Assembly: GCA_902525615.1 (NCBI GenBank)
Contig: CABZHT010000001.1
Span: forward strand, 413,282 to 477,281
Reading direction: 5' to 3'
Origin: an uncultured Fidelibacterota bacterium
GTDB taxonomy: Bacteria > Fidelibacterota > Marinisomatia > Marinisomatales > Marinisomataceae
DNA: 64,000 nucleotides
The notes below the pieces were generated by a model. It made no database searches. It worked only from the letters and a program-made list of their open reading frames with translations, and was not told the origin of the DNA. Shown here piece after piece: positions 2,502-6,139 of the stretch. The position numbers and the translations under genes were made by a program. The first letter of the stretch is position 1. Each line of letters begins with the position of its first letter.

Positions 2502-3272
2502 TTAAATGATGCCTCGCTTACTAGAATCATAAAAGTGAAGAATTTCATTGATATGCTTACTATCAGAAAACTCTTCTTTGACTCTAGCAAGAGCATCTGA
2601 TTGATTTAAATCAGATCTAAAAAGGTACCTGTAAGCTTTTTTAATATCAGATTTTTCATCATCTAAAAAACCTCTTCTGCTCAAACCTAAAGAGTTAATA
2701 CCAGAATATTGAACTGGATGTTTACCAGCAAGTATAAACGGAGGTACATCTTGTACAAGTTTTGAGTTTGCTGCCACCATAGCATGTTTTCCAATTTTAC
2801 AAAATTGGTGCGCATTGCTTGCTCCGCCCAAAATTGCCCAATCATCAATTTCTACATGACCACCTAATGCAACTAGGTTTACCAAAATAACATTATTACC
2901 AATAATGCAGTCATGTGCAACATGAACACCGGTCATGATTAATACATCTTCACCTATTCTAGTTTCTCCTGTTGCGTTTGTTCCCCTATTTAAAGTAACA
3001 AATTCTCTGATAATTGTTCTATCTCCAATAATTAATTTTGTATCCTCACCGCTAAATTTTTTATCTTGAGGAATCGCTCCAATGCTACTATTATTTACTA
3101 TGTGACAATCATTTCCGATCTCTGTAAACTGAGAAATGGTATTAAAGTTACCAATCTTTACATTGTCACCAATTATAACATTATCTTCAATAACGTTATA
3201 AGGTCCAATCACAACATTATTACCAATTTTGGCTGAGCTTGATATAATATTCGTTTTGTGTATCTTGCTAAT
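2502..3272 (-). CDS. lpxA: UDP-N-acetylglucosamine acyltransferase, probable ATT start
   Basis: First enzyme of lipid A synthesis: transfers a 3-hydroxyacyl chain from ACP to UDP-GlcNAc (or an amino analogue). Left-handed beta-helix hexapeptide repeats fill residues 10-190, and the catalytic His lies in HVAHDC (about residue 120). The first ATG/GTG/TTG-type start is a GTG at 3212 that would cut into the first helix coil. Reading further upstream in frame gives SKIHKTNIISSSAKIGNNVV, a typical LpxA N-terminus, beginning at an ATT codon (3272-3270). That ATT sits 6 bases after an AGGAG (3279-3283) and 9 bases after the fabZ stop. I therefore call 256 aa from ATT. The family is sure; the start is inference. 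Confidence 0.9.
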   Translation of the reverse strand: MSKIHKTNIISSSAKIGNNVVIGPYNVIEDNVIIGDNVKIGNFNTISQFTEIGNDCHIVNNSSIGAIPQDKKFSGEDTKLIIGDRTIIREFVTLNRGTNATGETRIGEDVLIMTGVHVAHDCIIGNNVILVNLVALGGHVEIDDWAILGGASNAHQFCKIGKHAMVAANSKLVQDVPPFILAGKHPVQYSGINSLGLSRRGFLDDEKSDIKKAYRYLFRSDLNQSDALARVKEEFSDSKHINEILHFYDSSKRGII

Positions 3273-3278
3273 TTTTAT

Positions 3279-3283
3279 CTCCT
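3279..3283 (-). promoter_or_regulatory. Shine-Dalgarno site deciding the lpxA start
   Basis: On the minus strand this reads AGGAG, overlapping the fabZ stop codon. It is followed by 6 bases and then the ATT at 3272. It is the only good ribosome-binding site near the lpxA start and supports the non-canonical initiation codon. Confidence 0.6.
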
Positions 3284-3713
3284 ATCTTTCAACCATTGAG
3301 GCTAAAAATTCTGCCTTGGCTACAAGCTTATCATTAACATGACAAGTAGATTCAAACTTAAATGAATTTAACTTTTCATGTACTATCTTTGCCTCTATAA
3401 TAATTTGGTCACCTGGTATAACATTTGAACGAATCCTAAAATTGTTCACTTTTGATAAATAAACTAAATGATTTTCTGGATTATCAATAAAATCCAGTAT
3501 AATTAAGCATGCTGATTGTGCCATTGACTCAAGAATTAGCACTCCAGGCATTATTGGTTTGCTAGGAAAGTGTCCTAAAAAAAATGGTTCATTAATAGTG
3601 ACATTTTTTAAAGTTTTAATTTCTTTTTTTTCCTTCTTATCAATAATCCTATCAACAAGTAAAAAAGGATAACGATGTGGAATCATTTCTAAAATGTAAT
3701 TTATATCTTTCAT
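3282..3713 (-). CDS. fabZ: 3-hydroxyacyl-ACP dehydratase
   Basis: Hot-dog fold dehydratase that converts 3-hydroxyacyl-ACP to trans-2-enoyl-ACP, competing with LpxA and LpxD for the same acyl-ACP pool. Catalytic His48 (LGHFPSKPIMPG) and Glu62 (LILESMAQ) are present; the 143-aa length is normal. Its ATG overlaps the lpxC stop by 4 bases, so the two are probably translationally coupled. In Bacteroidota lpxC and fabZ are fused into one gene; here they are separate but overlapping. Confidence 0.96.
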   Translation of the reverse strand: MKDINYILEMIPHRYPFLLVDRIIDKKEKKEIKTLKNVTINEPFFLGHFPSKPIMPGVLILESMAQSACLIILDFIDNPENHLVYLSKVNNFRIRSNVIPGDQIIIEAKIVHEKLNSFKFESTCHVNDKLVAKAEFLASMVER

Positions 3714-4630
3714 TTAAATTGATCTTTAAATTCATTTCTTAATATTCTTGCAAACTCAACATTGCCTTTATGTCCACTTTTAATAGCTGTTACGTGTCCT
3801 TTGATTGGTTTGCCAAGTAAAGCTAAATCTCCAATCAAATCTAATGTTTTATGTCTTACTGGCTCATTTTTAAACCTTAAATGCTGTGATTTATAAAGTC
3901 CTCTAGATCCTTGGTAAAATTTGATACCGAACTTATCCATAAAAAACTTTACTTCGTCTCCGTCTATATCTTTATCAACAATCACCACTGCATTTCCAAT
4001 GTTGCCTCCCCTAATTAATCCCTGCTTGGCTAATTCAGTAACTTCGCTCAATAAACAAAATGTTCTAGCTGGAGCTATTTGCTTTTCATAATTAGTATAT
4101 GCATTTTGAATTGAACTATATTGAACATCTAAATCTTCTAAATCATATTGAATTGTAAAAGTAGTTTTAAACCCATCAAAAGGAACTGCTAATACTTCAA
4201 CATCTTTTTCTTCATCATTATAAACTACAGGTTTTGTAATTTCTAAAAAATCAACTGGCTCATTTTGCTCAATAATTTCACCTTCTTTTAAAGCTGATAC
4301 AAAATCTTTAGAACTTCCATCCATTACTGGTGGTTCTTTACTATTTAATTCAATTAAAAGATTATTTACTCTCATACCGGCACAAGCTGACATTACATGT
4401 TCGGTGGTATGTACCCTTACACCATTCTCTTCAATTGTTGTACCACGAGTCAGATCAACAACATTATCTATATCTGGAGTTACAACTTTATCTCCTTTGT
4501 CATTTCTAATAAATTTGATGCCAGTATTTTCATCAGCAGGATGAAAAGTGATAGTGCTTTGTACTCCTGTATGAAGTCCTACCCCAGTACATGACACGGA
4601 ATATCTGATTGTTTGTTGTTTAGCTGGCAT
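3710..4630 (-). CDS. lpxC: UDP-3-O-acyl-GlcNAc deacetylase
   Basis: Zinc deacetylase that catalyses the committed step of lipid A synthesis. The N-terminal hallmark TGVGLHTG is present, one zinc ligand is His78 in HTTEHVMSA, and the other ligands lie in RHKTLDLIGDLA with the catalytic SGH loop (KGHVTAIKSGHKGN) after it. Length is 306 aa. It sits between lpxD and fabZ, an order reminiscent of Bacteroidota/Chlorobi and unlike the proteobacterial cluster, where lpxC is next to the fts genes. It overlaps lpxD by 11 bases and fabZ by 4. Confidence 0.96.
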   Translation of the reverse strand: MPAKQQTIRYSVSCTGVGLHTGVQSTITFHPADENTGIKFIRNDKGDKVVTPDIDNVVDLTRGTTIEENGVRVHTTEHVMSACAGMRVNNLLIELNSKEPPVMDGSSKDFVSALKEGEIIEQNEPVDFLEITKPVVYNDEEKDVEVLAVPFDGFKTTFTIQYDLEDLDVQYSSIQNAYTNYEKQIAPARTFCLLSEVTELAKQGLIRGGNIGNAVVIVDKDIDGDEVKFFMDKFGIKFYQGSRGLYKSQHLRFKNEPVRHKTLDLIGDLALLGKPIKGHVTAIKSGHKGNVEFARILRNEFKDQFK

Positions 4631-5615
4631 TTTTTTTTAATTTTTTTTCAAGTAATTCAAATCTTTTGTAAATAGCATCTCTTTTTTGTTTCTCTTTGAT
4701 AGGTCGTGCTGGATTACCGGCGTACATTTCAGAACCTGAGATAGATTTTAGTACGCACGATCTTGCTGCAATTATTGATTTAGCACCTAATATAATGTGG
4801 GGACCTATATCACTCTTACCAGCTATCGTTACATAATCTTCAATTTGAGTACTACCTCCAATAAAAACTCCCCCAGCTAATAAACATGCTTTTCCAATTG
4901 ATACATTGTGCGCAATGTGTACCTGGTTATCAAATTTACAAAAATCTCCTATTGTAGTATTTTGAACTGAACCTCTATCAATTGTACATGCTGATCCAAT
5001 TTCAACATCATTACCAATGATTACTGATTTTATATGAGGAATTTTATGATGTTCATTAGCAATTGTGTGGTATCCAAAACCATCACTTCCGATTACTGTT
5101 CCTGCATTTATAATACAATTTTTTCCAATAATTGTATTATCGTATATCACAACATTATCATATAGAACACTATTATCTCCTATAACACACCCAGGATTTA
5201 TTTTAACTCCATGTCCAATAAAAACGTTTTCACCAATGACAGTATCTTTATCAATAACAGAGAAAGAACCTATGTGAAAATTTTCGGGCTGATTAACTGA
5301 ATTGTGAATTTGAGAGTTGCTAGAAACATTTTTTTCAGGTAGGGGCCTATTGTCGAAATAATCTAAAATACTAATCATTGATAAATATGGATTCTCAACA
5401 ACAATACCACACTTACCATCTAAATCTCTTTCTGATAATACAATGAAAGCTGAAGCATTTGAATGTTGAATTTCTTTCTTATATTTTGGTAAGAAAGCAA
5501 ACGAAATAGACTCTTTTGTAGCTAATTTAATATCATCAACAGAAGAAATTATAATTGATTCATCCCCAATCAACTTTCCATCTACCTTTTCAGCTAGCTC
5601 TTTAAGAGTAATCAA
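4620..5615 (-). CDS. lpxD: UDP-3-O-(3-hydroxyacyl)glucosamine N-acyltransferase
   Basis: Third lipid A enzyme; adds the N-linked 3-hydroxyacyl chain from acyl-ACP. The N-terminal uridine-binding domain (residues 1-95) precedes a long left-handed beta-helix of hexapeptide repeats (about 105-300), ending in a charged helix (KRFELLEKKLKK). The catalytic His motif is in VHIAHNVSIG and the substrate loop in GSDGFGYH. The 331-aa length is normal. It lies 14 bases after ompH and overlaps lpxC by 11. Confidence 0.95.
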   Translation of the reverse strand: MITLKELAEKVDGKLIGDESIIISSVDDIKLATKESISFAFLPKYKKEIQHSNASAFIVLSERDLDGKCGIVVENPYLSMISILDYFDNRPLPEKNVSSNSQIHNSVNQPENFHIGSFSVIDKDTVIGENVFIGHGVKINPGCVIGDNSVLYDNVVIYDNTIIGKNCIINAGTVIGSDGFGYHTIANEHHKIPHIKSVIIGNDVEIGSACTIDRGSVQNTTIGDFCKFDNQVHIAHNVSIGKACLLAGGVFIGGSTQIEDYVTIAGKSDIGPHIILGAKSIIAARSCVLKSISGSEMYAGNPARPIKEKQKRDAIYKRFELLEKKLKKNAS

Positions 5616-5629
5616 GTGCCAACCTTTTT

Positions 5630-6139
5630 TTATTCAGTTGATTGTTTTTTCAGCTCTGTTAGGACATCATCAGTTAAGTCAATAGTAGGTTTGGTGTATA
5701 ATGATGCTTGAGTACCATCAATTATAAGATCTAAACCTTTTGCAGTAGCTACAGCATTTACTGCTGTTTTAAATTTTTCTACTAATAAAAATTCTAGTTG
5801 CTGTTGCTTCAAGGTTAGCTCACCATTAGGTCCAAGTTTTGCTAATTGATAGCTCTGCATTGAATTTTGCATATCAATAATGTCTTGTTCTTTTGCTTTT
5901 TTTAAATCTTCCGAAAGCATAAGGCTTTGTTGTTCATATTCTTTTGCCATGCTGTCAAGCTGGGTTGCCATTAATTGGTATTCTTTTTGAACGATTTCTA
6001 AATCTGCCTGAAGCTCTCGTTCAACATTTTGAAATTCTTCATAGTTTAGTCTTATTGTTTCAGAAAACACCACACCAATTTTTTGTTGTGCAAAAACAGT
6101 TGAGAAAAATAACATTATAAATAATATTTTTTTATACAC
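5630..6139 (-). CDS. OmpH/Skp-family periplasmic chaperone
   Basis: Periplasmic holdase for unfolded outer-membrane proteins. A signal peptide (residues 1-17, cleavage after VFA) is followed by a strongly charged coiled-coil region rich in Q, E and K (about 40-120) and a short C-terminal beta segment, the usual Skp layout in 169 aa. It lies between bamA and lpxD, the classic bamA-skp-lpxD order. The gaps are 15 bases to bamA and 14 to lpxD, so it is probably co-transcribed. The family call is confident. Confidence 0.9.
   Translation of the reverse strand: MYKKILFIMLFFSTVFAQQKIGVVFSETIRLNYEEFQNVERELQADLEIVQKEYQLMATQLDSMAKEYEQQSLMLSEDLKKAKEQDIIDMQNSMQSYQLAKLGPNGELTLKQQQLEFLLVEKFKTAVNAVATAKGLDLIIDGTQASLYTKPTIDLTDDVLTELKKQSTE

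Follow-up and report, generated by a model that had tools for sequence, protein, structure and literature searches.

The lpxA gene described here raises a basic question: at which codon does its translation begin? In the window, by which we mean the whole stretch of 64,000 nucleotides from an uncultured marine Fidelibacterota bacterium that was analysed, lpxC, fabZ, lpxA, and dxr form one tight run on the minus strand (Table 1), and the lpxA frame holds no ATG, GTG, or TTG before a GTG at 3212, which lies 20 codons into it. A sequence-only reading of this DNA had proposed an ATT start preceded by AGGAG, with in-frame upstream codons encoding a standard LpxA N-terminus, and had argued that LpxA would otherwise begin at GTG 3212 and lose its first coil. 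These observations were borne out. The fabZ stop TAG (3284-3282), the Shine-Dalgarno (SD) sequence AGGAG (3283-3279), the six-base spacing, and the in-frame ATT (3272-3270) are all present; the residues after the ATT, S-K-I-H-K-T-N-I-I, form a normal LpxA N-terminus; and the stop-to-stop frame matches NCBIfam TIGR01852 from residue 7 with 310 bits (curated cut-off, 231) and NF003657 with 326 bits (curated cut-off, 226), both near full length. Residues H117, H120, D121, and C122 of the AHDC region, a conserved histidine region with a catalytic role, are invariant in 13 aligned rows. The neighbouring lpxD gene (4620-5633) has TTG as its first canonical codon; two acyltransferase genes of the cluster, lpxA and lpxD, thus begin with codons other than ATG.

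Table 1. Features of the lpxA start region and its neighbours in the window
Feature	Position	Strand	Basis or remark
lpxC, four-base overlap with fabZ	3710..4630	(-)	open reading frame and family match
fabZ, upstream cistron	3282..3713	(-)	open reading frame and family match
fabZ stop codon TAG, overlapping the SD, 9 bases before ATT	3282..3284	(-)	
SD AGGAG, 6 bases before ATT	3279..3283	(-)	duplex energy -7.3 kcal/mol
Predicted ATT start codon of lpxA	3270..3272	(-)	ATT/ATC/ATA kept in relatives
lpxA coding sequence, read from ATT	2502..3272	(-)	frame, TIGR01852 match, relatives
GTG, first canonical codon of the lpxA frame, unconserved	3210..3212	(-)	would remove first coil
dxr	2493-1360	(-)	same tight run, after lpxA

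Searches for LpxA gave matches in 57 of 61, 120 of 130, and 181 of 199 genomes at the cut-offs used, and the 5' ends of 117 loci, then of 30 more, were aligned; these covered 89 of the 120 matched genomes of the order, all 29 found elsewhere in the class, and 29 of the 60 found elsewhere in the phylum (L031, where the match was the paralogue lpxD, was left out). Alignment of the upstream sequence of relatives, which the sequence-only reading had put forward as a check, placed ATT, ATC, or ATA (hereafter AUH) at the same position in 15 of the 19 genomes of the genus with a full lpxA match, the genome of the window included, and ATG in the other four. Throughout the order, an AUH start was assigned at 79 of 89 loci, and such starts were seen in all 15 families; of the other ten, nine have a canonical codon, and GTC occurs at L076. 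Elsewhere in the class, AUH was assigned at 18 of 29 loci (9 of 15 in the first set and 9 of 14 in the second), and elsewhere in the phylum at none of 29 (13 plus 16 loci), all of which are canonical. Among 80 named lpxA loci, mostly from Bacteroidota, a canonical codon lies close to the start in 77; the three without one nearby (L171, L172, and L178) all belong to the lineage of the window (Candidatus Marinimicrobia/Neomarinimicrobiota), and lpxA of L238, also from Neomarinimicrobiota, starts with ATG. Judged from sequence, the AUH start of lpxA is old and tied to one lineage. It can also be lost, since 21 of the 118 loci of the whole class (10 of 89 in the order and 11 of 29 elsewhere) were not assigned AUH, a count in which L008 and L089 were assigned AUH by hand despite a GTG or TTG nearby and L104 and L105 were counted as AUH although a canonical codon lies just ahead of His5; at these four loci and at L007, where a canonical codon is likewise close by, the choice of start is a matter of judgement. 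On the tree, no fewer than 11 changes of state (AUH, canonical, or GTC) and 33 of codon are required, with L018 and L019 entered there and in the codon counts as ATC/ATT at -4, the main start assignment giving ATA at -5 for both.

A few departures deserve mention in their own right. L076 (genome G049) has GTC where its closest relative, L073, has ATC, with no other start codon at hand, and represents either an assembly error or an even rarer start. The frame is shifted at the lpxA start site of L023. In L047 and L071 (G103 and G102), a TTG start lies two codons before His5 and the GAGG/AGGA has moved accordingly, SD and start having shifted together when AUH was lost.

Several lines of evidence indicate that the AUH codon is where translation begins. 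Of 104 loci of the class, 73 have no ATG, GTG, or TTG in the interval that runs from codon -8 to codon +10 around the conserved His5, and in 42 the entire stretch that begins at the in-frame stop upstream and extends 20 codons beyond His5 is free of canonical codons; elsewhere in the phylum, none of 13 loci is without a canonical codon. In these class loci, an in-frame AUH codon gives the conserved N-terminus where no canonical codon does so. The notion that the sequence hides a misread ATG at 3272 is excluded, as AUH recurs at the same place in independent genomes. A shortened LpxA that begins at GTG 3212, or at another canonical codon farther downstream, is what a mechanical open reading frame call would deliver; we regard it as very improbable, since the nearest relatives have GAG in place of that GTG, and in the five closest (L002 to L006) the next canonical codon comes only 87 codons past His5. 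The IHPTA N-terminus is, moreover, kept across the phylum in the 5'-end alignments, and four members of the genus have ATG at the long position. A start at the unconserved GTG 3212 was therefore rejected.

The pattern of substitution at the site points the same way. Departures from AUH among the 104 loci are ATG (nine), TTG (four), GTG (two), and GTC (one), whereas the isoleucine codon one before His5 has changed to valine or leucine in 13 of 88 AUH loci. That internal codon uses ATA 22 times; ATA makes up 4 of the 88 starts versus 19.6 expected from internal isoleucine codons of the same genes. Because nearly all departures are to start codons and ATA is rare, the site behaves as a start and not as an isoleucine codon. 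ATG in place is about as frequent as ATA, so the third-base counts make a weak case for selection against AUG, and the depletion of ATA is the firmer result. Taken together, these findings make us nearly certain that the AUH start of lpxA is real, as far as sequence can tell; the ATT start first noticed in the sequence-only reading is confirmed and supported about as well as this kind of evidence allows.

The relation of lpxA to fabZ bears on two further explanations. In L013, L014, L018, and L019 (genomes G020, G021, G009, and G003), there is no fabZ between lpxC and lpxA, and AUH is kept; no fabZ match was found anywhere in these four genomes, which are 72%, 77%, 82%, and 95% complete, respectively, so that a missing contig could explain some of the absences. 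One might suppose that FabZ and LpxA are made as a fusion through stop-codon readthrough or a frameshift, with the ATT serving as an internal isoleucine codon, and the TAG of fabZ in the window is indeed in frame with lpxA. The stop-to-start distance, however, is spread over all three frames (modulo 3, it equals 1, 2, and 0 in 52, 39, and 19 of 110 loci), the AUH codon persists in the four loci lacking fabZ, an SD precedes it, and its third-base use is unlike that of internal isoleucine codons. We rejected this hardly credible arrangement, which is largely refuted by the varying frame relation and by the fact that fabZ can be missing. In the genus of the window, lpxC and fabZ are separate genes with a four-base overlap; in two other families of the order (G026 and G045; L284 and L285), the fabZ match lies inside an open frame of 451 to 471 codons that resembles a bifunctional LpxC-FabZ protein.

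The second explanation concerns purpose. The sequence-only reading had suggested that weak initiation sets the ratio of LpxA to FabZ. This would fit the biochemistry as given in a review, in which LpxA uses a substrate shared with FabZ, the LpxA reaction is unfavourable, and LpxC is the committed step; a weak FabZ suppresses a temperature-sensitive lpxA mutant in E. coli, according to the same text (PMC12444477). In P. aeruginosa, the loss of fabZ was not made good when lpxA was deleted (PMC12152623). As a general purpose of the AUH start, the LpxA:FabZ ratio is weakened by the four members of the genus that keep AUH with no detectable fabZ, and it is unlikely to be the general reason for the codon. 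The interpretation offered in the sequence-only reading is, as a whole, partly supported.

Within the window, lpxA stands apart. Start comparison was carried out for 61 genes with at least two aligned relatives (1 of 62 was dropped for too few rows); 52 share a canonical start, and nine were flagged. For eight of these, an uppS-like and a thyA-like gene among them, the flag traces to a first codon identical in every row, to a position at the window edge, or to a relative that is truncated or has diverged, which leaves lpxA as the only gene of the 61 with no shared canonical start; not one of the remaining 60 calls for AUH. The approach recovers such starts where they are known, infC serving as the positive control: an AUH start after a strong SD was found in 37 of 40 infC loci of the same genomes (L131 to L170, L161 among them), a count that, where a row offered several AUH codons, did not always rest on the likeliest one, and infC of the genus has ATT after AAAGGAGAG or a similar sequence. 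The presence of AUH at both lpxA and infC might suggest that these organisms, through a special initiator tRNA or a change in decoding, treat AUH like any other start codon. To this we give almost no weight. All three tRNA-Met genes found carry the anticodon CAT, and the one among them with initiator features (L274, anticodon CAU) looks standard, as does the 16S-like tail GGATCACCTCCTT, which occurs once. The 49 window gene starts comprise 41 ATG, 6 GTG, and 2 TTG, which, with the lack of AUH in the 60 other genes compared, also speaks against altered decoding. No odd initiator was present among the 30 of 32 tRNA matches read, and a special initiator tRNA was rejected on this account.

The surroundings of the codon differ between AUH and canonical loci. 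An SD as strong as that of lpxA in the window occurs in only 4 of the 49 other window genes. The mean predicted energy of pairing between the SD and the 16S tail is -6.4 kcal/mol at AUH loci (n = 88) versus -3.7 kcal/mol at canonical loci (n = 28; Mann-Whitney P = 2.6e-6, with loci taken without correction for relatedness). In the genus, the means are -6.15 kcal/mol for 15 AUH loci and -2.15 kcal/mol for the four with ATG, which form one clade in the tree and have weak SDs (-0.4 to -5.2). AUH loci of the genus mostly have strong SDs, L018 (-1.5) and L019 (-1.7) being exceptions, and some AUH loci outside the genus (e.g., L040, L054, L072, and L098) also have weak ones. The upstream stop lies 1 to 2 bases before the lpxA start in 57 of the 113 loci in which fabZ was found, and mostly 8 to 9 bases before it in the genus.

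These features also frame the main rival to any functional reading, namely, that the AUH start is real but purposeless: a permissive, coupled start, at which the SD is strong and ribosomes are passed on from the upstream stop, would make the codon itself unimportant and let it drift. The closeness of the upstream stop in half of the loci, the variation of the third base, and the loss of AUH in several clades are all in line with such drift. On the other hand, an upstream stop also lies near the start of 26 of the 49 other window genes, and these nevertheless begin with canonical codons, with lpxA alone among the 61 compared in needing AUH; ATA is depleted well below expectation; and AUH has lasted through the class, while the sister classes have none in 29 loci. 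Drift strikes us as possible but rather unlikely.

We consider it probable, instead, that lpxA has a real, old, weak start, driven by its SD and placed beside an upstream stop, that holds LpxA synthesis down. The gene would be translated from a near-cognate AUU, and across the class from AUU or AUC and rarely AUA, with the ordinary initiator tRNA (CAU) reading the codon with a third-base mismatch and the strong SD holding the ribosome in place; the stop of the upstream cistron probably delivers terminating ribosomes that start again at lpxA. Such a start should give less LpxA than AUG, both IF3 and the condition of the initiating ribosome should influence it, and it may have been kept because entry into lipid A synthesis is thereby held down. 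Whereas the start codon, its age, its SD, and its neighbourhood can be read from the aligned genes themselves, the low yield, re-initiation, IF3 sensitivity, and selection for a low set-point are what we infer. Measured cases lend substance to this. In E. coli, expression of infC and pcnB is limited by AUU (PMC1780047), and in S. aureus reporters, AUU and AUA starts with extended SDs gave about 10% of the AUG yield in poor medium, one gene reaching as much as 30% in rich medium (PMC13009471). By analogy with these AUU and AUA starts (PMC13009471 and PMC1780047), weak initiation and a low LpxA set-point are plausible, and LpxA would be made at a low, SD-dependent rate by ribosomes coming from the upstream cistron.

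The lpxA start resembles that of infC in its near-cognate AUH codon, its strong SD, its conservation over a large group, and its presence in the same genomes; infC, however, encodes a factor that acts on its own start, whereas LpxA is a metabolic enzyme for which any effect of IF3 would be one-way. Starts that are not AUG, GUG, or UUG are selected against by IF3, which reportedly acts on its own start codon, an autocontrol said to have been described by Butler et al. in 1987 (cited in PMC1780047). LpxA is not known to act in initiation, and infC-type autocontrol is not expected for lpxA; the AUH start of infC in the same genomes nevertheless lets IF3 control of lpxA gain a little ground. AUU, AUC, or AUA starts are known from few bacterial genes, infC being the most widely conserved, and a depth of conservation like that of lpxA is otherwise known only from infC. 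The product of E. coli pcnB, reportedly found by Binns and Masters in 2002 (cited in PMC1780047 and PMC13009471) to be limited by its AUU start, offers the likeness of a nonribosomal gene so limited, although gene and lineage are different. The S. aureus genes ccpN (AUA) and cvfC1 (AUU) also combine a conserved noncanonical start with an extended SD, and their reporters reach about 10% of the AUG yield in poor medium (PMC13009471). These Firmicutes genes code for a regulator and a small protein, whereas lpxA encodes an enzyme of outer-membrane synthesis and keeps its start over a class of another phylum. In PMC1780047, a start was likewise deduced from a conserved N-terminus with no canonical codon, but in a single species, whereas the present case extends over more than a hundred genomes. 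Searches of the literature, mostly outside subscription journals, found no paper joining lpxA with an AUU or other noncanonical start codon and no relevant paper on start codons in Marinimicrobia.

Two readings of purpose remain: LpxA may be set low with respect to LpxC, or its synthesis may be tied to the condition of the ribosome. Leaving its purpose at these, lpxA appears to join the known genes with near-cognate AUH starts. In E. coli, LpxC is controlled by proteolysis. A 2025 review points to LpxA as a second site of control now emerging alongside LpxC, acting via (p)ppGpp and the ribosome-assembly GTPase ObgE (PMC12444477). More tentatively still, and we think it rather doubtful, lpxA and infC in this class could form a small set of genes that sense the state of the initiating ribosome through AUH, with growth-linked changes in free IF3 or in the stringency of initiation shifting LpxA output.

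In practical terms, gene callers limited to ATG, GTG, and TTG will cut lpxA short or overlook it in this class, the loss amounting to some 90 to 110 codons in certain genomes. A metabolic gene that keeps an AUH start through a whole class represents a natural experiment on the purpose of near-cognate starts, and the lpxA start bears on the control of lipid A. If lpxA and infC do sense the initiating ribosome in this way, lipid A synthesis would track translation capacity at its first enzyme, and control through the AUH start of lpxA would stand in place of, or beside, LpxC proteolysis of the E. coli type.
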